Assembly (NCBI GenBank): GCA_903866825.1
Contig: CAIPPE010000165.1
Coordinates: 1 to 32,778, forward strand
Source: an uncultured Methylococcaceae bacterium
GTDB taxonomy: Bacteria > Pseudomonadota > Gammaproteobacteria > Methylococcales > Methylomonadaceae
Direction of reading: 5' to 3'
DNA length: 32,778 nt
The first letter of the stretch is position 1. Every line of letters begins with the position of its first letter. A program made the translations under genes and the position numbers. Shown one piece after another: positions 714 to 29,477 of the stretch. The notes below the pieces were generated by a model. It was not told the origin of the DNA and did not search any database. It saw only the letters and a list, made by a program, of their open reading frames with translations.

Positions 714-2858
714 ATGAATCCTTTAATCAAGCAATTTAAGGACGAGAAGCGATGGTGTAATTGGAAATTTAAAACTATTGGAGATAAGAAAACAAAAGTT
801 CCTTATGCTATTACTGGTAAGCCAGCATCTTCTACCGATTCATTCACCTGGTCAACTTACGAAGAAGCTTTAAACGCTAGTAAGAATGTTGGAATAATTT
901 TTACCCCAGATCAAACCTTGCTTGGAATTGACCTTGATAAATGTCTAAATGATAAAGGGCAAATCCAGCATGAGAATGGCGAGCAGATTGCGGAATTATT
1001 AATCGAGGCTGATACCTACACAGAAACTAGCGTTTCAAAAACAGGGCTGCATTTATTCTTAAAACTTTCTGCTCCACTTCATCTTATTGCAAATCGAAAC
1101 CATAACTTCGAGATGTATACTAGCGGCAGATACTTTGTGTTTACCGGGAATTCTTACCAGGAAGAAAAAGAAGTCAGAACTGTTACTCCTGAAGAAGCCA
1201 CGAAATTATTAAATATCCTAGGTTATCCATTTAATAAGAAAGAAGAAGCTGATCATGTTGCGCCGAAGAACAATATGATTGCCCTGGACGACAACACTGT
1301 GCTTGAGAGAATGTTTAAGTCCAAGAACGGAGACAAGATTAAAAGTCTCTATGACGGAGACATTACTGCCCACGATAAAGATGGTTCAAAAGCAGACATG
1401 GCAATCTGTTCCCACCTGGCTTTCTGGTGCGGTAAAAATGCAACACAGATGGAGCGAATCTGGTCTGCTTCGCCTTTAGGGTCACGCAAGAAAACTCAAA
1501 CTCGCCCTGATTATCGAGATCGTACTATTAAGGCTGCGATAGATAATTGCCAAGAAGTCTATGAGACACCCTCAATGAAGATCGAAAAAGATAATCCAAC
1601 TTTAGACCTTCTATATTTTGTAAATAAAGAAAAAGAAAAGGTCTTTATTCAAAATACTGAAAACATGTGTCGAATCTTACGTTGTCACCCGGATTTTCAG
1701 AACCGCTTACGCTATGATATCTTCAAAAACTGTATTGAGATATTACCAACTGATAATAAATGGCGAACAATTGAAGACAACGACGCTGTGAACTTACAAA
1801 CTGCTATCTCAATTTTGTTTCCTTGTTTCAGCAAAGTCGGTAAAGATATGGTCTATGACGCCCTGATTAAAGTAGCCAAAGAGAATTTTATGGATAGCGC
1901 GAGTGATTACGTTAAATCTTTAAAATGGGACGGTACCAAACGCCTTGATACTTGGCTTAGTACAGTCTATGGTGCCCCAGACGACGTTTACCATCGCGCG
2001 GTAGCCTCAAACTGGCTTAAAGGACTTGTGAAGCGTATAACAGAGCCTGGTTGCAAATTCGACTATGTATTAGTGCTAGAAGGTCCTCAAGGAGCACGTA
2101 AGTCTACTTCCTTAGCGATTCTAGGCGGTAACTGGCACGTTGAGACTGCTATGAGTACCGATACTAAGGACTTCTTTATGCAGTTTCAGGGTAAGGCCAT
2201 TATTGAGTTCTCGGAAGGAGAAACCCTCTCGCGCACAGAGGTAAAGCGTATGAAGGCTATTATCACCATGCAATCTGATAAGTATCGCCCACCTTATGAG
2301 CGAACCAGTCAGGAGTTTCCACGCCGCTGTGTCTTTGCTATGACCACAAACCAGACGGAATACCTCAAAGATGAAACCGGGAACCGCCGCTGGCTTCCTG
2401 TGGCTCTTAAAGTAGAATTTGCTAACACAGACTGGCTATTGGCAAATCGAGATCAATTATTTGCGGAAGCATATTATCGAATAGCAAACCTTAAAGAAAC
2501 AGTTTATGAGTTTCCCCAGGCTGAAACACTGGCAGCTCAGGCAGCAAGAAGAATCCATGATCAAAATGCTGACTTGGTAGCAGACTGGTACTATGAATCG
2601 TTAAATGATGAAAATAGAGAACAAGGCATTACGATCCACCAGGTTTATAAACAAGCGATGAACGGAGGTTTTTCCACCAAGATAATGAGTAAGTATGATG
2701 AGATGAACATCGCTGATATCCTTAAATCCCATTTGAAACTTATTAATAGGCAGACGATGAGGAATGGGGTTAGGGCAAGCCGATGGTATATGGAAGGTCA
2801 AAAGGTCGAGGTGGAAGAAAAAAAGTTAGTATTGAGCGAGATAGATACAAATTGGTAA
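714..2858 (+). CDS. Primase-polymerase fused to VirE-type helicase
   Basis: The 714-residue protein would prime and probably copy phage DNA and unwind it. Residues 1-150 match the NrS-1 phage polymerase type of archaeo-eukaryotic primase: the substrate-loop-like ASSTD (38-42), the metal-binding GIDLD (71-75), TGLHLF with its histidine (110-115) and SGRYFVFTG (137-145). A small helical primase C-terminal segment follows at about 195-280. Residues about 395-565 form the VirE (PF05272) helicase: Walker A GPQGARKS (457-464), Walker B KAIIEFSEGE (494-503) and an arginine-finger-like GNRRWLPV (556-563). It is first in the early operon behind an attenuator. No Shine-Dalgarno sequence precedes the ATG; the leader is U-rich. 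A separate family A or B polymerase is absent from the window, so this may be the main replicase. Confidence 0.9.
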   Translation: MNPLIKQFKDEKRWCNWKFKTIGDKKTKVPYAITGKPASSTDSFTWSTYEEALNASKNVGIIFTPDQTLLGIDLDKCLNDKGQIQHENGEQIAELLIEADTYTETSVSKTGLHLFLKLSAPLHLIANRNHNFEMYTSGRYFVFTGNSYQEEKEVRTVTPEEATKLLNILGYPFNKKEEADHVAPKNNMIALDDNTVLERMFKSKNGDKIKSLYDGDITAHDKDGSKADMAICSHLAFWCGKNATQMERIWSASPLGSRKKTQTRPDYRDRTIKAAIDNCQEVYETPSMKIEKDNPTLDLLYFVNKEKEKVFIQNTENMCRILRCHPDFQNRLRYDIFKNCIEILPTDNKWRTIEDNDAVNLQTAISILFPCFSKVGKDMVYDALIKVAKENFMDSASDYVKSLKWDGTKRLDTWLSTVYGAPDDVYHRAVASNWLKGLVKRITEPGCKFDYVLVLEGPQGARKSTSLAILGGNWHVETAMSTDTKDFFMQFQGKAIIEFSEGETLSRTEVKRMKAIITMQSDKYRPPYERTSQEFPRRCVFAMTTNQTEYLKDETGNRRWLPVALKVEFANTDWLLANRDQLFAEAYYRIANLKETVYEFPQAETLAAQAARRIHDQNADLVADWYYESLNDENREQGITIHQVYKQAMNGGFSTKIMSKYDEMNIADILKSHLKLINRQTMRNGVRASRWYMEGQKVEVEEKKLVLSEIDTNW

Positions 2859-5519: not shown

Positions 5520-5694
5520 TTTTACAGATAAAAATGTTATCTTTCATAATGAGGAACAAGAACCTAAAAAAGAAGACAATAAATATGACTGTATTTTAGA
5601 ATGTGCTAAATGCGGCAAAACTATTGGATATGGTCTATCAGGTGATTTTAACTGCCTTGAAATTATTTGTGAAGATTGTATTAATTTATGCTAA
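5503..5694 (+). CDS. Small zinc-ribbon protein
   Basis: The 63-residue product has an acidic N-terminal half and then a classic zinc ribbon: CAKCGK, a turn of about 14 residues, and CEDC. Such domains bind nucleic acid or protein partners. The gene overlaps the end of the preceding small gene and the first seven bases of the helicase gene, so it is likely translated together with the helicase and could serve as its accessory factor. No catalytic residues are visible. Function unknown. Confidence 0.6.
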   Translation: MPNKNNFTDKNVIFHNEEQEPKKEDNKYDCILECAKCGKTIGYGLSGDFNCLEIICEDCINLC

Positions 5695-6881
5695 GACCAT
5701 ATCAACAAGAAGCCTTTAAAGCTATTAAAGCTGACATTGATCTACGTGGAGCATCATTAATTGTGATGCCAACAGGTTCAGGCAAGTCGCATCTTATTGC
5801 TGCTGCGGCCACCCTCAAAGCTCCTGTACTTATCCTACAGCCCTCGCGCGAGCTTCTAGCACAGAATAGGGCAAAGCTGGCTTTACTTGTCCCTGAGAGC
5901 GAAATTGGCACCTATTCAGCCTCATTTAAAGAGAAAACTATCCGTAAATTCACCTTCGCCACCATACAATCTGTGTATTTAAAGCCAGAACTTTTTAAAC
6001 ATATTAAATTGGTTATTATTGATGAATGTCATGGACTAGCTCCAAGGGCATTAGGCACAATGTATATGCAATTTTTAGAAGGAATTGGATCACCAAAAAC
6101 GCTAGGTTTTACTGCAACTCCATACCGCCTTGAAATTGGTTATCATCGTCACGACAATGGAGATTTAGAAGCTATGACGATGTTGAAGCTCATCAATAGA
6201 ATGAGGCATAAAAGTCACAAAGAGATTTTTTGGAAAAGAATAATCTATCATATTTCTTATAAGGAATTAGAGGAACAAGGGTATCTTTCTCCAATAGAAT
6301 ATATCCATGAACCACTTTTACCTTATACCGAGATACCAATTAATCAATCAAGAAGCGACTATAACCTTGAAGGATATACTAGGGCGATTGTTGGCAGGGA
6401 AGCAAATATTTTAAATACTATTACTGAGGCAGAAAAACGTTATAAGTCAATTCTAGTGTTTTGTTCTACAACTGATCAAGCTAGGATATTGTGGGCCGCA
6501 GTGAAGGATTCGGGGTTGGTTTTAGGTGATACCGATAATAAAGAAAGAACACAGACTATTGAAGATTTCAAAAATGGAAAGGTTAAGACGGTTTTTAACT
6601 TTGGAACCCTTACGACAGGCTTTGACCATCAGGAGCTAGACTGTGTTCTACTACTTCGCCCAACCCGTTCAATCGTTCTATATAATCAAATGCTTGGTAG
6701 AGTAACTCGAATTGCTCCGGGGAAGACTAAAGGCACTGTGATTGATTTAACTGATACTTGTCACGCTATCGGCAAGATAGAATCATTTGAAATGTACCGA
6801 AATGAAAGGGGATTATGGGATTTAAAAACTGAAAGACACGATAGCTGGCATGATCGTTGCCTTTTCTCCCGAATTATATGA
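5688..6881 (+). CDS. Superfamily 2 DECH-box helicase
   Basis: The 397-residue protein is a compact SF2 helicase that would use ATP to remodel DNA during replication or recombination. Visible motifs are the Q-motif-like RPYQQEAF (3-10), Walker A MPTGSGKS (27-34), motif Ia LQPSRELL, the DECH box (112-115), motif III TATPYR (142-147), motif V FNFGTLTTGFD and motif VI QMLGRVTRIAPGK. The order and the single RecA pair resemble RadD/UvsW-type helicases without long accessory domains. It starts inside the zinc-ribbon gene and its stop overlaps the next start as ATGA (6878-6881), so helicase and resolvase are co-translated, which fits a branch-migration and resolution pair. Confidence 0.88.
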   Translation: MLRPYQQEAFKAIKADIDLRGASLIVMPTGSGKSHLIAAAATLKAPVLILQPSRELLAQNRAKLALLVPESEIGTYSASFKEKTIRKFTFATIQSVYLKPELFKHIKLVIIDECHGLAPRALGTMYMQFLEGIGSPKTLGFTATPYRLEIGYHRHDNGDLEAMTMLKLINRMRHKSHKEIFWKRIIYHISYKELEEQGYLSPIEYIHEPLLPYTEIPINQSRSDYNLEGYTRAIVGREANILNTITEAEKRYKSILVFCSTTDQARILWAAVKDSGLVLGDTDNKERTQTIEDFKNGKVKTVFNFGTLTTGFDHQELDCVLLLRPTRSIVLYNQMLGRVTRIAPGKTKGTVIDLTDTCHAIGKIESFEMYRNERGLWDLKTERHDSWHDRCLFSRII

Positions 6882-7354
6882 GAATTAGAGAATCATCTTA
6901 TTATGCTTCAATCACAAAGCATTACATAGCTAATAAACCTAAAGGATATGATTCAGTCGCCTGGGAAGCTAAAATTACACGCACAAGTTGTTTAAACTTT
7001 AAATGCCTTGCAGATCACCAGGAAGAAAAACTCCTACGCGCAGAAGTTGCTTATGGTGAAAAGATTGCTGATGTTGGTAATTTACAGAAGCCTTTTGATG
7101 GCTGGGTAGTTTATAATGCCTATTCTGTGTTGATCGCTATTTTCTATAAAGAAGGTAATACAACGGTATTTGAGATACCAATTAGAGCCTTTCTAAAAGA
7201 TAAATACCAAAGCGGTAATAAGTCTCTTACACGAAAAAGAGCTGTTGAAATTTGTAGTTCAATTTTAGATATTACCCCAAATCGTTCTAGCCATTCTAAA
7301 CCGCTTACTTCCAACAATGACGACTTGAATCCCAATCAGCTGTCCCAAAGTTAG
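6878..7354 (+). CDS. Holliday-junction-resolvase-like nuclease
   Basis: I take the ATG at 6878, which overlaps the helicase TGA as ATGA, rather than the upstream in-frame ATG at 6857; this gives 158 residues. The protein shows a PD-(D/E)XK core: an early glutamate (E5), the motif WEAKITR with E30 and K32, then LNFKCLADHQEEKL and PFDGWVVYN. This arrangement matches RecU/Hjc-like phage nucleases that cut four-way DNA junctions. The C-terminal 25 residues are serine- and asparagine-rich. The last 50 bases overlap the end of the lysozyme gene on the other strand. The nuclease fold is likely; resolvase is the best functional guess. Confidence 0.65.
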   Translation: MRIRESSYYASITKHYIANKPKGYDSVAWEAKITRTSCLNFKCLADHQEEKLLRAEVAYGEKIADVGNLQKPFDGWVVYNAYSVLIAIFYKEGNTTVFEIPIRAFLKDKYQSGNKSLTRKRAVEICSSILDITPNRSSHSKPLTSNNDDLNPNQLSQS

Positions 7355-7682
7355 CATAAACGTATTCAGCCAATTCTGTGTTATCTTCCCAATTAAAGAC
7401 ATCTTTATTTATATAATCTTTTCCCCAAAGCATTTTAGCGTAATGAATCCAGGTAGAATGAATAAACTGGAAACGGCCAGAAGCAGTAGAGGTAGAATTT
7501 TTAGCTAAGGCATTACCGACAGGGTGATCAACGTCACCTGATTCACAGATTGCTATCTTCACTAGCGTGTCAGGAAGTGGCGCATCAAGATTAATACTGA
7601 TCGGGGCTTGAACAGCTCCAACTGCCACAGTAAATGACAGCAAGAATAGGGCCATAAGCCCCATAGTTGTTATTATTTTCAT
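7305..7682 (-). CDS. Secreted lysozyme-like transglycosylase (endolysin)
   Basis: The 125-residue protein has a signal peptide or signal anchor (residues 1 to about 24, hydrophobic LMALFLLSFTVAVGA), then a short lysozyme-fold domain. The catalytic glutamate is E47 in IAICESGD, and TASGRFQFIHSTW (66-78) is the characteristic substrate-cleft motif of Rpf and SLT-like enzymes. C46 and C123 could form a disulphide. It would cleave glycan strands after export. It follows the holin gene by 23 bases and is the last gene of the leftward block, so holin plus endolysin form the lysis pair. No Shine-Dalgarno sequence is present. Its end overlaps the resolvase gene on the opposite strand. Confidence 0.75.
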   Translation of the reverse strand: MKIITTMGLMALFLLSFTVAVGAVQAPISINLDAPLPDTLVKIAICESGDVDHPVGNALAKNSTSTASGRFQFIHSTWIHYAKMLWGKDYINKDVFNWEDNTELAEYVYANFGTADWDSSRHCWK

Positions 7683-7705: not shown

Positions 7706-7900
7706 TTAGTCACTCAATCCAGCACCAGCCCTAAACGCACTAGCCACCGCACTTCTCTTAACCGCCCAAGCATACAAACCCGAAAGAATACCACCGATAG
7801 TTATCTTCTCCCATGAGAAACCTGCGGATAATACAAAAGGAATGGCTACTAGAAGAACTTGAACTGCTACATGCCCTGCTTGTGTGAATATTGTTTTCAT
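7706..7900 (-). CDS. Putative holin
   Basis: This 64-residue protein has two hydrophobic segments, about residues 11-27 (VAVQVLLVAIPFVLSAG) and 33-47 (ITIGGILSGLYAWAV), then a basic and small-residue tail. Size, topology and position directly before the endolysin gene are those of a phage holin, which would form holes in the inner membrane to time lysis. No sequence motif defines the family, so the call rests on topology and context. It is preceded by an extended -10 promoter and a leader of about 180 bases with several hairpins, which suggests separate timing control. Confidence 0.6.
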   Translation of the reverse strand: MKTIFTQAGHVAVQVLLVAIPFVLSAGFSWEKITIGGILSGLYAWAVKRSAVASAFRAGAGLSD

Positions 7901-10773: not shown

Positions 10774-13700
10774 TTAAAGAATTATATAATTTAATGTGCT
10801 TGTATCGGTCGTCACTGTTACACCTAATACGGATACTGCGGTAATAGTTAATGTGTTTGTGGTACATACCGCTTTATACATCGCTCCAAGTGTTCCTGAA
10901 GGAGTTACAAGCTGTACAAAGGCTTGATTACTTGAAGTAAGTCCTGAAATGGTTATTGCTTTTGTACCTGATACTAAGGTTGTTGTACCTTTAGTCGTGT
11001 AAAGTAAATAAGTTGAACTATCTACGCCACCATCTGCTTTAAGGAATTGAGAAGAAGTACCCCCTGATTTAACAAAAGAAGCACCTGTGATATTTCCACT
11101 TGTATCTATTGTTGTAAGTCCACCTGCAAAAGAAGCTCCATTACCTTGAAAGTTTGCTACTCCGTTGTAGATGTCTAATTGAGTGTAACCACCAATTGAA
11201 TTTAATGTCCCGTAAATAGAGTCGTTACTAGATAAATTTATTTCATTGTAATTCGGAGCATAAGCACCATTACCAAGAGCTGTGGCGTAGTCTGCTGTTG
11301 CAGTAGCACCATAACCAATAGCTGTGGCGAAGTCTGCTGTTGCAGTAGCACCATAACCAAGAGCTGTGGCGAAGTCTGCTGTTGCAGTAGCACCATAACC
11401 AAGAGCTGTGGCGGAGTTTCCTGTCGCATAGGCACTGTAGCCAAGAGCTGTGGCGGAGTTTCCTGTCGCATAGGCACTGTAGCCAAGAGCTGTGGCGAAG
11501 TCTGCTGCTGCATAAGCAGCATAACCAAGAGCTGTGGCGTAGTCTGCTGTTGCAGTAGCACCATAACCAAGAGCTGTGGCGTAGTCTGCTGCTGCAGTAG
11601 CAGCATAACCAAGAGCTGTGGCGAAGTCTGCTGTTGCAGTAGCACCATAACCAATAGCTGTGGCGTAGTCTGCTGCTGCATAAGCACCATTACCAAGAGC
11701 TGTGGCGGAGTTTCCTGTCGCATAGGCACTGTAGCCAAGAGCTGTGGCGGAGTCTGCTGCTGCATAAGCACCATAACCAAGAGCTGTGGCGAAGTCTGCT
11801 GTTGCAGTAGCACCATAACCAAATTGCTCACTTTCTACATAAGATGGATTAGGAGAGGTTATACCTCCGTTGGCTGTTATGAGACCTGCAAAACTAGCTT
11901 CACCATTGACTTGGAAAGTAGCACCTGTTCCATCATCTGAAGTTGAATTTACTAATAACTGCCTGCTAGCCAAAATATTGACAATATCGGCGTTATTAAT
12001 AAAACCCATTGCTATAGCATTAGCCGAACTACCATAGTTATCATATCTAAAACCAAAATAACCTGCATTATTATTTCCTGCGTCATACCCAACGAAAGGA
12101 GAAACTAGAACCTCTCCTGATGACATATTCGAATTGTGAACAAAACTACCCCAAGTGTAATTATTAGGACTTACAACAGTAATATCTAAAACTGCGGGGC
12201 CATTTCCTGCACCTCCATCACCATTTAAATATAAAGCTGTGGGTGTGTATACAGATGAATTTCCAATTGATGCACCTCCATTACCAAATGGATTAAAAGT
12301 AGATACTATATCTTGATTAGAAAATATCGAAATAGGAATATCACTAGGTGAACCCATAATAAATTCCTTTAAAACTCCACCATTACTTTGAACATCAAGA
12401 ATAGTCTTACCACCATCAGTTGATGAGCCAATGGCCGAAGGATAATAAGTATTAGGAAACTGCGAGCCATGCACCATGAACTGTACAAAGTTATTGTACC
12501 AGCCCCCATCGCCTGAGTTGGAGACAATGAAACCTGCACGTCCTGCTGGATTGCTGCTATCAAATTGACCAAGATTAGAAAACATCGCTCCTGAGTTATC
12601 GGCCACAAGTGTTAGAGTAGTCTGGATATTAGCAAAATAGGAAGCATCACCGAAAGTAGAATAAACACCTACATGAGTTTGCCCATCTATGAGTAAATCT
12701 CCTTCAATGTTCACATCACCTGTAGCACCATCTAAAGTTATAGGAGCTACTTGATAGTAATAATTGTAACTAAAGTTGTATATTACGACACCACCACCAG
12801 TAGTGTCAGTTACAATTCCTGTAGTGTAATCAATCGTGGCGATTGGGCCGTAGGATGAGTCATAAATGTTCCCTGAGCCGTCATCGTATACTGCTCCCGT
12901 ACCTCCATAACTGTCGTTACCACTTATAGAACCAGGGGCAACAGGCTGGTGTGTTGTTGTGAAGTTTGAAGAATAAGGATTGTCTGTGTAGCGAGCAGTC
13001 TTAGTTAGGAAAGACCCCAACTTCATAAATCCATTTAAGTCCAACGTCGCGTTCTGTGAACCATTAAAGTCAGTAGGATTTGTAGGGTCGGCAAATTGAA
13101 TGGCGTTGGGGCCGCCTTGGGGAGAGGAAGAAGCAAAAACTAAAGTATCACTACCATTAATTTTCTGAAAAGAAACACCTGAACCTTGGAAGTCTAATGT
13201 CTTAAACATTCCTTGTTTCTGCCCATTAACTAAAAGTTGAAGTCCTCCGGGACCACCGATCAATCTCTGTGATAAAGATGTAGACTTTCCATTACCTTTC
13301 TCTAAAATTTTTATTCGAGCATTAACATCATCAAACCCTTTGAACACAGAAAGCTCGATCTGCTCATCGTCATCTAGTGCTAGTATTTTTTCTTTAATTG
13401 TCTGTGGTGTTTCAGCTTCATATTCAGGAAATTCTACTTGCATCAAAACTTCATTAACAATAGCTGGATAGTCTATAGTAGGAGTTTTGCCATCTTCAGG
13501 CTGATGAATTTGAGCTAACACAGAAGAAATAATGCGAGGATAATCAACTTCAGGTGTATCACCATCTTCAGGCTGTCTTATCTTCTCCATTATAGAATCA
13601 ATAATCTTTTGTTCATCTACAGGATCAGCATCTTTACCTTTCAATGAAGCTAAAAACTCAGGTGAAAAATTATCAAAAGCTTTTTGTATAGTTTTTGATA

Positions 13701-13815
13701 ATTCATCTATTTTTATTAAAGCTTGAAATAAAGCAAGTTCAGGATCATCTGACATAATGCCAAGTTTGTGCAATATTTCTAACCTCTGTTCGTCTGTTAT
13801 ATTATCTATTGACAT
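10774..13815 (-). CDS. Long tail fibre with YadA-type repeat stalk or head
   Basis: The 1013-residue protein is the largest product. Its N-terminal 170 residues hold repeated acidic segments (KIIDSIMEKIRQPEDGDTP, RIISSVLAQIHQPEDGKTP, AIVNEVLMQVEFPEYEAETP) that probably form a trimeric stalk or attach to the tail. A glycine- and serine-rich beta region follows. Residues about 666-850 are 13 copies of a 14-residue YadA-head-like repeat (type GYGATATADFATAL), which in trimeric adhesins wraps into a left-handed beta roll. The end (GGTSSQFLKADGG onward) is a fibre-like tip. It would bind the host surface. No intramolecular chaperone triad is evident. A rightward promoter overlaps its start codon region. 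Confidence 0.8.
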   Translation of the reverse strand: MSIDNITDEQRLEILHKLGIMSDDPELALFQALIKIDELSKTIQKAFDNFSPEFLASLKGKDADPVDEQKIIDSIMEKIRQPEDGDTPEVDYPRIISSVLAQIHQPEDGKTPTIDYPAIVNEVLMQVEFPEYEAETPQTIKEKILALDDDEQIELSVFKGFDDVNARIKILEKGNGKSTSLSQRLIGGPGGLQLLVNGQKQGMFKTLDFQGSGVSFQKINGSDTLVFASSSPQGGPNAIQFADPTNPTDFNGSQNATLDLNGFMKLGSFLTKTARYTDNPYSSNFTTTHQPVAPGSISGNDSYGGTGAVYDDGSGNIYDSSYGPIATIDYTTGIVTDTTGGGVVIYNFSYNYYYQVAPITLDGATGDVNIEGDLLIDGQTHVGVYSTFGDASYFANIQTTLTLVADNSGAMFSNLGQFDSSNPAGRAGFIVSNSGDGGWYNNFVQFMVHGSQFPNTYYPSAIGSSTDGGKTILDVQSNGGVLKEFIMGSPSDIPISIFSNQDIVSTFNPFGNGGASIGNSSVYTPTALYLNGDGGAGNGPAVLDITVVSPNNYTWGSFVHNSNMSSGEVLVSPFVGYDAGNNNAGYFGFRYDNYGSSANAIAMGFINNADIVNILASRQLLVNSTSDDGTGATFQVNGEASFAGLITANGGITSPNPSYVESEQFGYGATATADFATALGYGAYAAADSATALGYSAYATGNSATALGNGAYAAADYATAIGYGATATADFATALGYAATAAADYATALGYGATATADYATALGYAAYAAADFATALGYSAYATGNSATALGYSAYATGNSATALGYGATATADFATALGYGATATADFATAIGYGATATADYATALGNGAYAPNYNEINLSSNDSIYGTLNSIGGYTQLDIYNGVANFQGNGASFAGGLTTIDTSGNITGASFVKSGGTSSQFLKADGGVDSSTYLLYTTKGTTTLVSGTKAITISGLTSSNQAFVQLVTPSGTLGAMYKAVCTTNTLTITAVSVLGVTVTTDTSTLNYIIL
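11275..11820 (-). repeat. Thirteen tandem 42-base repeats in the fibre gene
   Basis: The repeats encode units such as GYGATATADFATAL, GYSAYATGNSATAL and GYAAYAAADFATAL, thirteen complete plus a partial GNGAYAPN unit. Several neighbouring DNA units are nearly or fully identical (for example the two GYSAYATGNSATAL units at about 11401-11484), so unequal recombination could change copy number and the length of the fibre. They also create an artificial Met/Leu/Gln-rich frame on the same strand, which I do not accept as a gene. Confidence 0.85.
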
Positions 13816-13836
13816 TTTATTTGCTTGCGGTATAAT
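13809..13836 (+). promoter_or_regulatory. Consensus sigma70-type promoter pointing against the late operon
   Basis: A perfect TTGACA (13809-13814), 16 bases, and a perfect TATAAT (13831-13836). The -35 overlaps the start codon of the fibre gene on the other strand. Transcription would begin near 13843, only about two bases before the ATG at 13845, so the message would be leaderless or almost so. Confidence 0.75.
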
Positions 13837-13844
13837 ATCTAATT

Positions 13845-13976
13845 ATGTTTGAATCAATTATCGTTTATCTAATTCTTGGCTTTATTATTGGTTTCCCCCA
13901 AGCAACTATCGTTTTTGGTGTTCTATTTGCTTGGTTTTTCATATCTATTTACATAAATCGTAATAAAACTATTTAG
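13845..13976 (+). CDS. Orphan 43-residue membrane protein with its own promoter
   Basis: In the 153-base gap between two leftward late genes, a rightward frame encodes 43 residues. It contains two hydrophobic segments separated by a short turn (SIIVYLILGFIIG, then TIVFGVLFAWFFISIYI) and a basic end (NRNKTI). A perfect promoter precedes it by eight bases. The end overlaps the last eight bases of the leftward neighbour. Independent promoter, opposite direction and small membrane product are features of phage moron genes, of small exclusion or toxin proteins, or of antiholins. No family match is recognised. No terminator is visible, so its transcript may run antisense into the 592-residue protein gene. 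Reality fairly likely; function unknown. Confidence 0.6.
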   Translation: MFESIIVYLILGFIIGFPQATIVFGVLFAWFFISIYINRNKTI

Positions 13977-15747
13977 TCTTAGCTTTATTTTCTAACTGTC
14001 TCAAAACCTTACCTTCTGGGTTAGAAAATCTATCTTGTATAAACTTCAACCAAGTACCAGGCTTTGTGATATCTAACGCGCCAACACTTTTTGCGTTCTT
14101 CAATGTTTGATCTAACAATGAAGCGACACGCGGATCATGCGCTACTTCCATAGCAAATTTTGCCATATTTAGATGATCAAATATTGGAACACCTGTTGCA
14201 TTTTGTACTCGCTCCAATAGATTTCGAGTAGATGATACCGGAGAGAAAGCCTGTTTTGCCACAGAGGCTGCATTTTTATAATTATCTCCAACTTTATTAT
14301 TTAACTCATCATACATTTCTTTAAGTGGCCCATAAGTTGCTTTAGCTTTAGCAAATGCCTCACCACCAGTAGTTTTAGCTGCATCATTTAATTGATGAAC
14401 GAACTGAGATACCACACTCTGTGTGGGAGTGCTTATTGGTTTTGGTCCGATTCCTTTAGCGGCTTCAAGTTTATTTTGAAGGTTACTAATTTCATCTTGA
14501 ACTTCACTAAGAGAGTTTTTACCGTCTTTAATTCTATTTAATGTGTTGTAAGCTGCATCTACTAGATTTCTATCAGTAGCAGTTTGAATTCTTGAAGTTC
14601 TACCAGGAGCATCATAGATATTACCTGATACAGGTTCCTCATTAGTTGCGCTAATACCCTTTGTATTTTGATCAAGACCTTTTATAAAGTCCATTGATTC
14701 TTTTAGTGAACTAAATTTAGAAGGAGAAAGACTATCACCATGGATAGAACCAAGCCTTTCTTGCATTAAATTATTTAAGGTAGATTCAGCGGCAGTATGG
14801 TCCACAGATAATGCGCCGTTCTTGGCTAGTTCGTCATTCATCGCTTTACCAGCAACATCAAGAAGCCCGGGTGTACCTGTAGGATTTTTTAAAGCAGTAA
14901 GAGCCGCTTTAATCTGTGTAATTCCAGCAGTTTCATAAGGAGTAGCAGAATTAGTTTTAGTCGCTGTTCTTGCTTGATCTAAATAAGTTTTAAGGGTATT
15001 AGCTAAATTTTTTGCTTCAGCTGGTGTTGCAGTTTCAATCATATTCTGAATACGAGCGTCTAGTGGAGTAGCCATATCTGAAAGCTTATTAACAACAGGC
15101 GCAGCAACATCAACGGCTTTATCAACAATAGCTCCGGGCACAGCCTTTACTGTGTTTACGGCACTTTTAGCAGCGCCAACAGTAGTATCTACAGCTCCCT
15201 TAGCAGCATCAGTTATTTCTGGTGCTTCTTTACCACCAGCTAAGGTCGCGCCAATAGTCAAAAGGTTTGGTAGGTCCTCTGTAATACCTGGATATTTCAT
15301 AACCATTTGCTGAATCAATGGGTGACTAGCAATAGAGTTAGCAATAGGATCAATAATAGTTTTGTTTAAAAAATCTCCAACATTTCCACCAGTTCCAGCC
15401 ACAGGTGAATCGGCTAAGTATTTTTGTCCAGCTGAAAGGGGAGCCAATATAGTATTTATGCCACCAGCGGCTTCTTGTCCGGCTCCACTAATTAAATTAT
15501 ATGCTCCTGAACTCAGACTTTTGCTATTTGCTCCGTTCTGAGTTTGAGTAAAACCAGACTTAATCTGGTTAATACCATTCATAAAAGAATTTTTTAAATT
15601 ATCCCAATATGATGGAGTTGCAGGAGCCGCAGTTGTATCAGGCGCAGTAAAAGTATCTAGCGATGGTTGCGCTGGTGTATTAGTTGGTGGAACCAATGTT
15701 GGAGCTTGGCTTGAAACAAAAGATGATAGAGGTGGTAATGTTGCCAT
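13969..15747 (-). CDS. Putative internal/ejection virion protein (592 aa)
   Basis: The protein has a proline-, threonine- and alanine-rich start, then a small-residue-rich zone with membrane-like or amphipathic patches (LIQQMVMKYPGITEDLPNLLTIGATLAGG). A long helical region follows (about 230-500, with NEISNLQNKLEAAKG-like coils) and the protein ends in a basic tail (KVLRQLENKAKTK). Large alanine-rich helical proteins in tandem near the tail genes of short-tailed phages are usually internal proteins ejected into the host. It starts one base... after the 552-residue protein's region ends, so they are probably partners. No enzymatic domain is visible. Assignment is by composition and position. 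Confidence 0.5.
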   Translation of the reverse strand: MATLPPLSSFVSSQAPTLVPPTNTPAQPSLDTFTAPDTTAAPATPSYWDNLKNSFMNGINQIKSGFTQTQNGANSKSLSSGAYNLISGAGQEAAGGINTILAPLSAGQKYLADSPVAGTGGNVGDFLNKTIIDPIANSIASHPLIQQMVMKYPGITEDLPNLLTIGATLAGGKEAPEITDAAKGAVDTTVGAAKSAVNTVKAVPGAIVDKAVDVAAPVVNKLSDMATPLDARIQNMIETATPAEAKNLANTLKTYLDQARTATKTNSATPYETAGITQIKAALTALKNPTGTPGLLDVAGKAMNDELAKNGALSVDHTAAESTLNNLMQERLGSIHGDSLSPSKFSSLKESMDFIKGLDQNTKGISATNEEPVSGNIYDAPGRTSRIQTATDRNLVDAAYNTLNRIKDGKNSLSEVQDEISNLQNKLEAAKGIGPKPISTPTQSVVSQFVHQLNDAAKTTGGEAFAKAKATYGPLKEMYDELNNKVGDNYKNAASVAKQAFSPVSSTRNLLERVQNATGVPIFDHLNMAKFAMEVAHDPRVASLLDQTLKNAKSVGALDITKPGTWLKFIQDRFSNPEGKVLRQLENKAKTK

Positions 15748-23024: not shown

Positions 23025-23867
23025 CTAGGCAACTGTTACGTTGAAAAGAATAGGCTTTACGTTATGCCAAACCTTACCCTTGAAGTCTACACGACTGATA
23101 ACACCAATACCGGAAACGTTAAGAGGATCTTGTGTAACGACAATCTGACCATAGGTAGATTTTACGATACCAAGGTGATAACAGTTCTTAACACCAGCGA
23201 TTAAGTGACCAGCTGTAAGCTTATTAGATGAGAAGTGCTGTACATTCATGTAATTGAATCCCTGAGATGTACCGTCCTTCAAAGCTCCATCAGCAGTAGA
23301 GAAACCGTTTGCCTGAACAAATGCTTCCAAAAGCTCAAAGTCAGCAGGTCTCCATACAATGAAGTAACCCTCGCGTTCTGCAACTGATTCTCCATTTGCG
23401 ATACGAACTTCACGCTTGATACCACGAATGATATCGTCAACGTTTGCAGCAGAAACAGTGATGTTTCCAGCAGCTCCACCAATCTTTGTATTGTCAAAGG
23501 TCGTCATAGAAGCGTAATCAGCAAAAACCGCTGTTTCGATAGCTTCATTCAAAAGAACACCCTGTGATCCAGCTTTTTGCATCTGGGAAACATAGGTGGT
23601 CTGAGCCAAATCAGCTCGGTCAATGATCTGAGGCAAGATTTTGAAAGTGTTAATAGCGATGTTTTCATCGGTAGTAACGATATCTTGCATTGTGTAAGCG
23701 GTACCACGTGTACCGGACTGAACAGTAGCGTCAGTTTCATATGGATTGTGAAGCACAGCCATGTCTGTGTACTCTACGCGGCAAATAATTTTCCACTTAT
23801 TTGGTTCCGCAAGACGCTCCTGGATTTTAACAGCCCAGTCTTCAGCGTATACGATTGTATTACTCAT
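23025..23867 (-). CDS. Major capsid protein
   Basis: The 280-residue protein has the composition and layout of a P22/N4-type coat protein with an HK97 fold. A spine helix is suggested in the region LNEAIETAVFADYASMTTF, an insertion-like loop around DNTKIGGAAGNITV, and a beta-rich end GQIVVTQDPLNVSGIGVISRV, LFNVTVA. It lies directly after the scaffold gene and in front of the adaptor, the usual place. The leader has a perfect 16-base palindrome, ACTTGAT-AA-ATCAAGT (about 23882-23897). There is no Shine-Dalgarno sequence even for this gene, which should be the most translated. Confidence 0.8.
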   Translation of the reverse strand: MSNTIVYAEDWAVKIQERLAEPNKWKIICRVEYTDMAVLHNPYETDATVQSGTRGTAYTMQDIVTTDENIAINTFKILPQIIDRADLAQTTYVSQMQKAGSQGVLLNEAIETAVFADYASMTTFDNTKIGGAAGNITVSAANVDDIIRGIKREVRIANGESVAEREGYFIVWRPADFELLEAFVQANGFSTADGALKDGTSQGFNYMNVQHFSSNKLTAGHLIAGVKNCYHLGIVKSTYGQIVVTQDPLNVSGIGVISRVDFKGKVWHNVKPILFNVTVA

Positions 23868-25697: not shown

Positions 25698-27533
25698 TTA
25701 TTTATTTTGATTAATATTATCTCCACCTCCGGCTCCCATCATCTTATTCATCATGTCGTTCATTGGTGATGGAACTGCACCAGGCATAGGAGCTGAAGAA
25801 GTTGGTGCGCCAGCATTAGTTAAACCAGAGAAATCTAATGGATCAAGACCAGCTGATTCAAGTATCTGATTAAATAGTTTTGCGATAGGGGGATTTGCAA
25901 GTATCTGAGGATTTGCAATAACAGTTCGGAAGATGTTTGTAAGCTTATCGCTCATACCTGATAGATTTTTCTGCTTACCAGCGATATTCATTTCTACCTC
26001 AACTGGAATTTCTGAGAATTCCTCTTTCATTATCTCCATGAATCTCTTACTGTCTCCTTTCAGTAATGAAGCTTTTAAGTTTGTCTTAATAGTTTCAAAC
26101 TGAGCTGGATCAACAACCTCTCCCGGCTTCATTGTGGATAACTTGTTGATAATCAACTCATTAACGTAATTGGTTACAGTCTGTTCAGCAACCTGTTGCA
26201 TCTCATCTAAACTTAATGTTTCAGAAAAAGTTTTTCCACCATTCATATCAGCCACAAGAAAGCCCAGAATCCAGTCTCGATAAACCTCTCCCCAAAATGT
26301 AGCTAACTTACCTCGTAGATCATCATGGCGTCCCATTCCTTCCTGGACGTTAAGTGCCTCAAGTTGAAATGGTGTACCAGAAGTTGCTGGTTTTCCTAAT
26401 AGAGCATCATCAGCTGATCCAGTTGTCCTCGCGTGCTGTTCCCATTGTTCAACTGCGCTATTAAATGCCTGTATATTTTGTGGAGTTAAATTAACTTGGC
26501 CCAATGTCTTACCTTCAGCTACAGTTAATATCTCACCTGTTACCAAATTCTTTGTCTTATTGCGAGTAGCAAATGATTCGTCGTTTGTCTGTAATAGCAT
26601 CAAAGCAGCTGCATCAAGCATGTCCTTTATCTTAATCTCAGAGTAGTTAGTCCAAATCTGAGACTGGAACAATTCCTCAATACCAGAAAACCCGCATGCG
26701 CGTCCGTAAACTTCATCGCGGACAATTGCTTTAAAGATTGATTTCTTTTCCTTCCCCTTAAACAAAGTAATACCTTGTTTCTCTCCCTGCTCATTTTCAT
26801 AAAAAGTTACATAATGAGCTTGTCCAATATAATTCGATTCCTCCATGTACTGATCATCTTCATTGTCAGAATTCAACCAAGTCTCCGGGAAAATTCCATG
26901 AACTTCGTAAACCTCAATATACTTTCCGGGTGTTTTGCTTCTTTCTTTATCTTGAGTATTTGATGCCTTGGTTGCTTGAGACATAACAATGGCTTCATCA
27001 ACTTTATCTTTGAACCATTTCTGCTCAAGTAACTGATCAATTGAAAAAGCATGTTTAATCGCAATTGGACCAGAAAGGATATCGGTCTGATCACAGAAAG
27101 CTAGCGACGGCAACTTAATTACTTCAGGTCGGGTATTATTTACCTTCTTCAACAAAGTTAATCCGTAATCAACATAACTTTCAACCGATTCATCAATACA
27201 GGTATCAAGGTTGTTCTTTCTAGCCCATTGAGGATTATATTTTCGTACTAAAAACGATTTGTAGTATTCATCAGGATTATCAACATAAGGTTCGATGTCT
27301 TTTACATTAAAGCCTTCTGAACGATAAGCGACATTAAGAATCGGACGCATTATGTTCTTGTAAGGACGAGAATTATCATCAGGTCCTTTAGTAAACTTTG
27401 AATTCTTCGCCATCAAGCACTTTTGAATATGCTCGTACATATTCCATTCCCAATTATCAGCAATAGGAACTCTAGCGGTCTTAAAGTTTGCTTCTTCCTC
27501 TAAGATGTATTTAAAGATTGAGTTATACGCCAT
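25698..27533 (-). CDS. Portal protein
   Basis: The 611-residue protein occupies the portal position: terminase, one small gene, then this gene, then scaffold and coat. It shows portal-like features: a long N-terminal helical/beta region with PILNVAYRSEGFNVKDI, conserved YVDYGLTLLKKVNN, a region QSQIWTNYSEIKIKDMLDAAALMLL that fits the clip/stem part, then PQNIQAFNSAVEQWEQHARTTG and a proline/glycine-rich C-terminus with helical barrel segments (LTNIFRTVIANPQIL). The dodecameric ring would be the entry for DNA packaging. No tail tape measure follows, consistent with a short tail. Call by position and layout. Confidence 0.75.
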   Translation of the reverse strand: MAYNSIFKYILEEEANFKTARVPIADNWEWNMYEHIQKCLMAKNSKFTKGPDDNSRPYKNIMRPILNVAYRSEGFNVKDIEPYVDNPDEYYKSFLVRKYNPQWARKNNLDTCIDESVESYVDYGLTLLKKVNNTRPEVIKLPSLAFCDQTDILSGPIAIKHAFSIDQLLEQKWFKDKVDEAIVMSQATKASNTQDKERSKTPGKYIEVYEVHGIFPETWLNSDNEDDQYMEESNYIGQAHYVTFYENEQGEKQGITLFKGKEKKSIFKAIVRDEVYGRACGFSGIEELFQSQIWTNYSEIKIKDMLDAAALMLLQTNDESFATRNKTKNLVTGEILTVAEGKTLGQVNLTPQNIQAFNSAVEQWEQHARTTGSADDALLGKPATSGTPFQLEALNVQEGMGRHDDLRGKLATFWGEVYRDWILGFLVADMNGGKTFSETLSLDEMQQVAEQTVTNYVNELIINKLSTMKPGEVVDPAQFETIKTNLKASLLKGDSKRFMEIMKEEFSEIPVEVEMNIAGKQKNLSGMSDKLTNIFRTVIANPQILANPPIAKLFNQILESAGLDPLDFSGLTNAGAPTSSAPMPGAVPSPMNDMMNKMMGAGGGDNINQNK

Positions 27534-27908: not shown

Positions 27909-29477
27909 TTAAACTGCTGGATTTGTGGATTCTTTTCTTTGCCAAATTGTCGGCTGTTCAGTCGGCTTTACTGCCTTCGCAGTTGCTCGGTCTTTCATCT
28001 GCCAAGCGATTGCACAGGCGATAAGAAGGTCAAAGTGCCGAGTAGCCAAGCGTGCGTCAGGTTCACTATCTATCAAATCGTTTCTTGTGTAACTTTTAGC
28101 TTCATTAATAAGGTCAAGGTCATTTAATTCAATCAAACCGTCCTCAATAGCTAACTTTAAAGACGAAAGCATTTGTCCTTTAGTCAAAGAGTTTGTATTC
28201 CAGCCATAAATCGTAGGCGGTGGTGCATTGACCTTAATCTCTCGGCCTTTTGTCTTATACAAATTAGCACCGAGTTGCTTGGCCTTTAGAATTGCTGCAT
28301 CATACTTATTATTTTCCACGGCTTGTAAACATCCGCCAAAACGATTGCCCTGCGTATAAATCTCATCGCCAAATGATTCAGGTTGAATCATATTATTTTT
28401 AAACGTTCCGACAACTTGGGCTGGGATAGTATCAAAATCAATAAAAGCCGAAGTTGAACTATCTAGTCCGACACCTCCGGCAACGTCATGACCAGAGGCA
28501 ATTCGATGTCCAGCTTTATACTCCCGGAATATCTTAAATTCACCAAGCGTTTTGATTGGCTGTAGAATTGGCATCGCCTCTAGCTTTTGACGATCAAAGT
28601 AAATATCTTTTGAAGCATTAGGCTTACACAAACGTTCACCCTCAAAGTCATCGTCGTCCTCTCGCATCTTTGCAATGTCAGATTTTGAATAACGTTCCCA
28701 TGTTGGATTACCTTCAGCATCCTCAATAGGCCAAATATCTACCACCTTTGATGATGATGATTTTGTAACAAGCGTGTGGACGTTACCCGATTCAGAGAAA
28801 TAGTTGCAAGTATAAATTGATGAACCACCAAGAGCCAATCCAGTACGTGCTTCTTCCATGTTGTCCCAAATCTTACGAGTTAAAAGTGCCGAACGAATTG
28901 TAGTCTTAGTCTCAAAGTCGTCGTACCAATCAAAATCAGACTTAGCATCATCCATAATTTTACCTCGCTGTTCAACTCCGATTTGTTTTGCAAGCACCTT
29001 GATACCTGTTGAAGTCGTGAACGATCCCATACGTTCCTCGCGCTTAATCTCTGTCTTCTCAAACGTTTCAGGATAAAGAGCACGAATCTTAGGCTGGATA
29101 AGCATATTGTAAATATCAGTCACAGACTGTTGCGAGTTATCTCCGTCAGAAGATAAGCAGCGAATAAACCGACGTGTCTTGTCTCGGTCATTTAAAATAG
29201 CAAATGATATAAAAAGTTTTGTACGAGCAGTTTTAGCCGCACCTCTAAATGCCACATCAACATATTGTGCTATCTCGCCTCGATACGCTTGGAGATTGTG
29301 CAAATCCATATCTGCGTGCTTTGGTGCATCAGGACTTTTAAAGTATTGAGGAAAAAACTTACGTGACCACAAATTGAACTTTAGAGCGATAATCTCGTCT
29401 GAATCAGTTTTTTTAAAACCAAATAAAGATCGTAATTCTTTAGGATTATCGTTTTTTAGGATTTCTTGTAATTTCAT
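27909..29477 (-). CDS. Terminase large subunit
   Basis: The 522-residue protein is the packaging motor and nuclease. The ATPase part has a Walker-A-like FRGAAKTART (77-86; RGAAKT with K82, T83), in the unusual form used by several terminase families, and a Walker B region DWYDDFE (183-189) with adjacent acidic residues. The RNase-H-like nuclease has D331 in GHDVAGGVGLDSS, E388 in QAVENN and D483 in RHFDLLIACAIAW. All three acidic metal ligands are present, so it should be active. It lies between the small terminase and the portal genes, overlapping the small subunit by 32 bases. Confidence 0.9.
   Translation of the reverse strand: MKLQEILKNDNPKELRSLFGFKKTDSDEIIALKFNLWSRKFFPQYFKSPDAPKHADMDLHNLQAYRGEIAQYVDVAFRGAAKTARTKLFISFAILNDRDKTRRFIRCLSSDGDNSQQSVTDIYNMLIQPKIRALYPETFEKTEIKREERMGSFTTSTGIKVLAKQIGVEQRGKIMDDAKSDFDWYDDFETKTTIRSALLTRKIWDNMEEARTGLALGGSSIYTCNYFSESGNVHTLVTKSSSSKVVDIWPIEDAEGNPTWERYSKSDIAKMREDDDDFEGERLCKPNASKDIYFDRQKLEAMPILQPIKTLGEFKIFREYKAGHRIASGHDVAGGVGLDSSTSAFIDFDTIPAQVVGTFKNNMIQPESFGDEIYTQGNRFGGCLQAVENNKYDAAILKAKQLGANLYKTKGREIKVNAPPPTIYGWNTNSLTKGQMLSSLKLAIEDGLIELNDLDLINEAKSYTRNDLIDSEPDARLATRHFDLLIACAIAWQMKDRATAKAVKPTEQPTIWQRKESTNPAV

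Follow-up and report, generated by a model that had tools for sequence, protein, structure and literature searches.

Positions 13845-13976 of the stretch analysed here, a 32,778-nucleotide (nt) piece of contig CAIPPE010000165.1 (hereafter the window) whose layout reads as that of a phage genome, very likely hold a real, leaderless and fast-evolving microprotein gene. The open reading frame (ORF) begins almost at its own predicted promoter, runs opposite to the late genes and lies at the junction between a gene placed like that of the last ejection protein and a fibre gene, and hydrophobic ORFs recur on the same strand at the same junction in many related phage contigs. The best overall explanation, that these ORFs encode micro-membrane proteins which exclude other phages in the manner of P22 SieA without being homologous to it, is one that we favour tentatively and consider close to an even chance.

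A first-pass annotation of the window had described a TTGACA-16-TATAAT promoter placed nearly at the ATG of a 43-codon ORF in a 153-nt gap, and all of these coordinates were confirmed (Table 1). The discriminator between a -10 element and the RNA start is usually 6-8 nt long, and the RNA is therefore predicted to start at about 13843-13845, giving a message that would be leaderless or nearly so. The 3′ end of the ORF overlaps the end of the neighbouring gene of 592 amino acids (aa) by 8 nt. No second perfect promoter (spacing 16-18) occurs anywhere in the window, and among 300 dinucleotide-shuffled versions of it 11 had at least one. T makes up 48% of the + strand of the gap, so that an antisense ORF resembling a transmembrane segment arises in 20% of shuffles of the gap, and an open frame of 42 codons has a probability of about 0.07 at the gap's composition; taken alone, the promoter and ORF of the window are only moderately beyond chance. 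Direct repeats around the gap were judged weak.

The ORF codons fit the codon use of the phage better than shuffles of the ORF's own bases, of which only 0.2% of 500 reached the same fit once stops had been dropped. The encoded peptide has a best 17-residue hydropathy mean of 2.3 on the Kyte-Doolittle scale, and AlphaFold2, run on the single sequence, returned one continuous helix from residue 2 to 42 (predicted local distance difference test 95.4, predicted template modelling score 0.58). Thus, of the two-helix membrane protein proposed previously, the hydrophobic character stands, and the peptide would make one or perhaps two membrane passes, the two-helix form being not certain. Searches with the peptide gave no Pfam match at an E value of 1, a best PHROGs match at E 0.25, no PADLOC match at E 10 and, among cultured phages, a single chance-level match (E 7).

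The strongest evidence for a gene comes from the junctions of relatives. These were gathered by a terminase search (31 loci), a capsid alignment (35 relatives) and tail-protein alignment searches, from which the best 80 of 158 and the best 80 of 127 relatives were used. Late gene order is broadly common to them, running from a tail protein through more tail or neck genes and two ejection-position genes to the junction and the fibre. Junctions were chosen from these loci by gene order and by eye, which gave 39 distinct contigs, the window included, with a junction gap of 76 nt to 2.7 kilobases (kb); 13 further contigs, in which the two genes stand -1 to 40 nt apart, were counted as having no gap. 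Contigs ending before the junction was complete (for example, L062, L066, L074, L089, L092, L097 and L102) were excluded, as were duplicates (L199, the same as L198; L076, near L075; L080, the same as L078; and refetched copies), and L160 and L167 were inspected and also left outside the count. In each contig we scored one ORF, the most hydrophobic, among antisense ATG ORFs that were 18-60 aa long and whose most hydrophobic 17-residue stretch averaged at least 2.0 on the Kyte-Doolittle scale.

Such an ORF, 19-57 aa long, was present in 31 of the 39 gap junctions, compared with 6 of 39 on the sense strand, and in 30 of the 38 junctions other than that of the window. Among gaps of at most 400 nt, which the shuffle comparison covers, the antisense ORF was found in 20 of 25 (19 of 24 with the window removed) against 3.27 expected from shuffles, and the sense strand carried one in 2 of 25; the longer gaps were positive in 11 of 14 cases. 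As a control, we took from these loci 125 further gaps of 76-400 nt that separate neighbouring genes of like strand; they contained 6 antisense and 8 sense ORFs. The difference between 20/25 and 6/125 is highly significant (Fisher p 2.7e-15), as is that for antisense ORFs accompanied by a promoter score of at least 8, found at 13 of the 25 junctions and at none of the 125 control gaps (Fisher p 2.8e-12). In the capsid subgroup to which the window belongs, all nine contigs whose junction was in view carried the ORF (the window, L188, which is the same record as L035, L194, L196, L198, L200, L202, L203 and L214).

The promoters of these ORFs sit at a preferred distance. We scored matches to the -10 and -35 elements out of 12 at every distance from 0 to 30 nt between the -10 element and the ATG, and the mean score peaked at 6.32 where the -10 element ends 6 nt before the ATG, the remaining distances giving means of 3.94 to 5.52. 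At 4-9 nt, 13 of the 31 ORFs reached a score of at least 9 (shuffle mean 0.93, maximum 4 in 300) and 18 reached at least 8 (shuffle mean 4.57, maximum 11); 16 of those 18 lie at 6-8 nt, with the window at 8 nt. The remaining 13 ORFs had no good promoter at 4-9 nt, among them L158, which has a strong one 12 nt away, and in L117 and L120 the next internal ATG suits a promoter better than the scored one. When a -10 element ends some 6-8 nt ahead of its start codon, the spacing is that of a leaderless message, and such a message is what this arrangement predicts. Recurrence together with this set promoter distance argues strongly against chance for the group. In eight contigs (L196, L198, L200, L202, L203, L214, L172 and L046) the letters between the -10 element and the start are G-rich, with GG a few bases from the ATG, and a second start signal is possible there.

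Some junctions hold more than a micro-ORF. The junction of L038 (1553-4232; same record as L064) is an island of roughly 2.7 kb with antisense small genes and more promoter-like sites besides a 38-aa peptide; that of L040 (16906-17682, reversed locus) carries an antisense gene for a 130-aa protein, hydrophobic at its N-terminus and with no PHROGs match, plus a 26-aa hydrophobic ORF; and that of L109 has a longer antisense gene of 140 aa.

Changes by codon position could be compared in three pairs of relatives. Shuffle tests on all 528 pairs of 33 peptides identified three homologous pairs, namely L172/L046, which have a common RLPK.F.D end, L196/L214 and L120/L182 (z 12.4, 9.4 and 8.7), and most other pairs showed no clear similarity. 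Differences at codon positions one, two and three numbered 11-5-18, 10-6-13 and 16-5-21 in the three pairs, the last being compared over its aligned segment only. This excess at third positions is the pattern expected of a selected protein, with the caveat that pairs picked by protein similarity favour second-position identity by that choice alone. Separately, L095 and L096 are 78% identical over 9 kb, yet have unrelated antisense peptides at the junction, which suggests that the peptide gene has been replaced.

Leaderless initiation would also fit the way in which the host of the phage appears to start translation. Of 29 genes in the window, 1 is preceded by a Shine-Dalgarno-like motif, against 2 at a control distance; among 381 genes from 23 relatives the motif precedes 16, against 40 at the control distance. 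In 15 contigs of the genome bin that contains the window, by contrast, 28 of 85 genes have it (control 5). The near-absence of the motif in the phages compared with the bin indicates that the phage host probably translates without a Shine-Dalgarno motif; it is probably not the organism of the bin, and the phage contig may be misbinned.

The closest functional parallel is sieA of phage P22. In the P22 genome (NC_002371), gene 16 ends at 13313 and sieA lies on the opposite strand at 13336-13830, with a promoter at 13861-13891, followed by orf59a, mnt, arc, ant and then the tailspike gene 9. Like sieA, which lies between gene 16 and gene 9, the window ORF lies between the last ejection-position gene and the fibre gene, on the strand opposite to the late genes and with its own promoter, predicted here for the window and its relatives. 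P22 SieA is described as an inner-membrane protein that blocks DNA injection, is linked to the ejection proteins and occurs as highly diverse types at one conserved place (PMC10883804); diversity at one place is a further point of likeness, and membrane character, which hydropathy suggests for the junction peptides, would be another. SieA has 164 aa, whereas the peptides are 19-57 aa long and have a single hydrophobic stretch or perhaps two; their promoter spacing is of the leaderless type, and most short gaps place their genes immediately next to the fibre gene. Exclusion, moreover, is known for SieA and only proposed for the junction peptides. We propose with moderate confidence that the window gene works like SieA, and do not file it as a SieA member.

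We infer the following course of events from the promoter and ORF, their position-specific recurrence, the promoter-ATG spacing, the protein-level conservation in three pairs and the placement shared with sieA. A sigma70-like promoter, directed outward from the fibre gene, would start a message at or a few bases from the ATG, and host RNA polymerase would make this message once the DNA enters, independently of the late operon on the opposite strand. The message would be translated as a leaderless mRNA and the peptide would insert into the host inner membrane. There it may disturb the conduit built by the ejection proteins of a superinfecting related phage, as proposed for P22 SieA (PMC10883804), and the infected cell would thereby be closed to competitors. 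Among the roles suggested in the first-pass annotation, exclusion of other phages appears to be the best fit, given that sieA of P22 shares this position and orientation.

Several observations weigh against this explanation. The window peptide is about a quarter of the length of SieA and has no significant BLASTP match to P22 SieA, the sole SieA compared (E 5.1). The 592-aa protein is named an ejection protein by place alone, its comparison with P22 gp16 being not significant (E 0.12). Since none of the 27 window proteins scanned, a subset of the ORFs, matched an integrase, the phage may be virulent, unlike P22. Eight of the 39 gap junctions (L047, L059, L095, L103, L118, L130, L163 and L179) fell below the threshold, of which L095, L103 and L130 have weaker hydrophobic ORFs. 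Two further junctions, examined after the count and kept apart as negatives, also lacked an ORF: L226, from a contig of a metagenome-assembled genome named Methylobacter (gap 83-101 nt), and Podoviridae sp. ctMEh928, with 171 nt at the junction and no hydrophobic antisense ORF. Together with the 13 contigs without a gap, the junctions without an ORF indicate that the gene is not essential; Pseudoalteromonas phage H6/1 likewise has no gap between its ejection gene and its tailspike gene. Finally, peptide similarity had no overall link to the similarity of the ejection or fibre proteins across 465 pairs (p 0.90 and 0.56), although a matched pair of peptide and target might predict such tracking.

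Alternatively, a real early micro-membrane protein could have another role, acting on the host membrane or on host defence during takeover from a junction that tolerates insertions. This alternative is a serious one, which we nevertheless regard as somewhat doubtful: it draws on the same evidence for a real gene, on the largely unrelated sequences of the junction peptides and on the longer antisense genes at the L109, L040 and L038 junctions, whereas the almost uniform hydrophobicity and size of the peptides and the coincidence with sieA suggest one membrane role over random cargo. The first-pass annotation had also raised an antisense regulator of the ejection gene, and this proposal emerged weaker, since the ORF and that gene overlap by 8 nt only and the three pairs show the codon-position pattern of a protein. 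In its broader form, an antisense or non-coding RNA directed against the end of the ejection gene, or transcriptional interference with the late operon, with the ORF incidental, it is improbable. The transcript would indeed run convergently into the ejection gene, P22 has the antisense RNA sar in the same general region (NC_002371), and the minus strand of the gap, which is sense for the late genes, folds better than shuffles over 13816-13990 (z -2.7, equalled by 4 of 200 shuffles); against this, the RNA predicted from the + strand shows no folding beyond that of shuffles (z -0.59), the -10 element stands at a leaderless distance from an ATG, and hydrophobic ORFs are present at 20 of 25 short gaps where 3.27 are expected. 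A pinholin- or antiholin-like lysis protein expressed from the opposite strand would suit the size and hydrophobicity of the peptide and is very improbable, given a constitutive-looking promoter, a strand opposite to the late genes and a location away from the lysis-like genes. An accidental promoter and open frame in a T-rich non-coding gap, which the shuffles of the gap and of the window allow for the window by itself, can hardly account for ORFs at one junction in 31 of 39 contigs, with promoters at a set distance, when the control gaps yield 6 in 125.

The junction gene also shares features with morons, as the first-pass annotation had noted on the basis of its own promoter, opposite direction and membrane product, and the same junction arrangement in relatives strongly supports a moron-like gene with a predicted leaderless message. 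Phage morons have promoters of their own and are often membrane or exclusion genes. As in phage morons, an extra gene with its own, here predicted, promoter sits inside another transcription unit, the late genes, in most but not all relatives; unlike them, it keeps a fixed place and strand across many divergent phages, and most described morons are far larger than the junction peptides. The predicted RNA start at or near the AUG resembles that of the lambda cI message, a leaderless phage message (PMC9031893); the junction gene differs in that a single very small gene recurs at a fixed place, and does so in phages with no Shine-Dalgarno-like motifs ahead of their genes. No description of the junction gene came up in literature searches on leaderless small membrane proteins of phages, antisense ORFs at tail-fibre genes, leaderless or Shine-Dalgarno initiation, exclusion by small proteins, oppositely oriented morons and conserved microproteins, a scope that takes in no bioRxiv preprints and few subscription papers.

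In its genome bin, which has 345 contigs and 4.28 megabases (Mb), the window is contig 165. Its replication-type genes run rightward and its late genes leftward, and their assignments are given in Table 1. The 592-aa protein has a weak PHROGs tape-measure match (E 2.8e-6) and no significant BLASTP match to other ejection-position proteins of the junction set; a hairpin lies on the minus strand at the end of its gene. The name ejection protein for the last gene before the junction derives from L203, whose protein has 32.5% identity over 53% of its length to gp19, the putative ejection protein of Pseudoalteromonas phage H6/1, in which the gp19 gene is followed by the tailspike gene. The N-terminal 300 aa of the window fibre match the corresponding parts of the fibres from L214 (E 1e-6) and L064 (E 2e-7). 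A near-DNA search of the phage collection revealed no close relative of the window, nor did viral contigs when queried singly with its 592-aa, tail and capsid proteins. A search for the ejection-position protein in 18 records returned nothing, the phage collection held no match to a tail protein or, in two more searches, to ejection proteins, and a viral scan with an ejection-protein alignment added no contig to those already gathered.

Table 1. Features of the window discussed in the text, with their positions and the basis of assignment.
Feature	Position	Strand	Remarks
-35 hexamer TTGACA	13809-13814	+	Within the first codons of the leftward fibre gene
-10 hexamer TATAAT	13831-13836	+	Ends 8 nt before the ATG; 16-nt spacer from the -35 hexamer
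43-codon leaderless-type ORF, predicted hydrophobic micro-membrane protein	13845-13976	+	ATG at 13845
Junction gap	13816-13968		153 nt; flanked by the fibre gene and the 592-aa gene, both leftward
592-aa gene at the last-ejection-protein position	13969-15747	-	Gene order; 3′ end towards the ORF
1013-aa fibre gene with YadA_head repeats	10774-13815	-	Divergent from the ORF; PF05658, E 4.5e-34
Primase-helicase with VapE-like domain and NrS-1 polymerase-like HBD domain	714-2858	+	
DEAD/ResIII helicase	5688-6881	+	
Endolysin-type match	7305-7682		
Holin-like 64-aa ORF	7706-7900		Judged by eye
Capsid	23025-23867	-	PHROGs, E 2.9e-8
Portal-like gene	25698-27533		Named by place and size only; no family match in profile searches
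Terminase	27909-29477	-	Weak PHROGs match, E 6e-4; about 27% identity to annotated terminases

These findings describe a class of gene that is easily missed by standard annotation, being too short, on the wrong strand and without a Shine-Dalgarno motif, yet is recurrent in a broad group of phages. It is conceivable, and we lean on it only lightly, that a large group of uncultured phages carries quickly replaced leaderless membrane peptides of 19-57 aa at the P22 sieA position, made on entry and each excluding phages with a matching ejection conduit, with turnover driven by an arms race. If the analogy with SieA is true, a peptide of 20-45 residues would suffice to block injection, and exclusion genes of short-tailed phages, possibly of virulent ones as well, could in general be sought at the sieA position. 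Exclusion would then be reduced to one or two membrane helices, and the membrane step of DNA ejection could be tested with minimal peptides.
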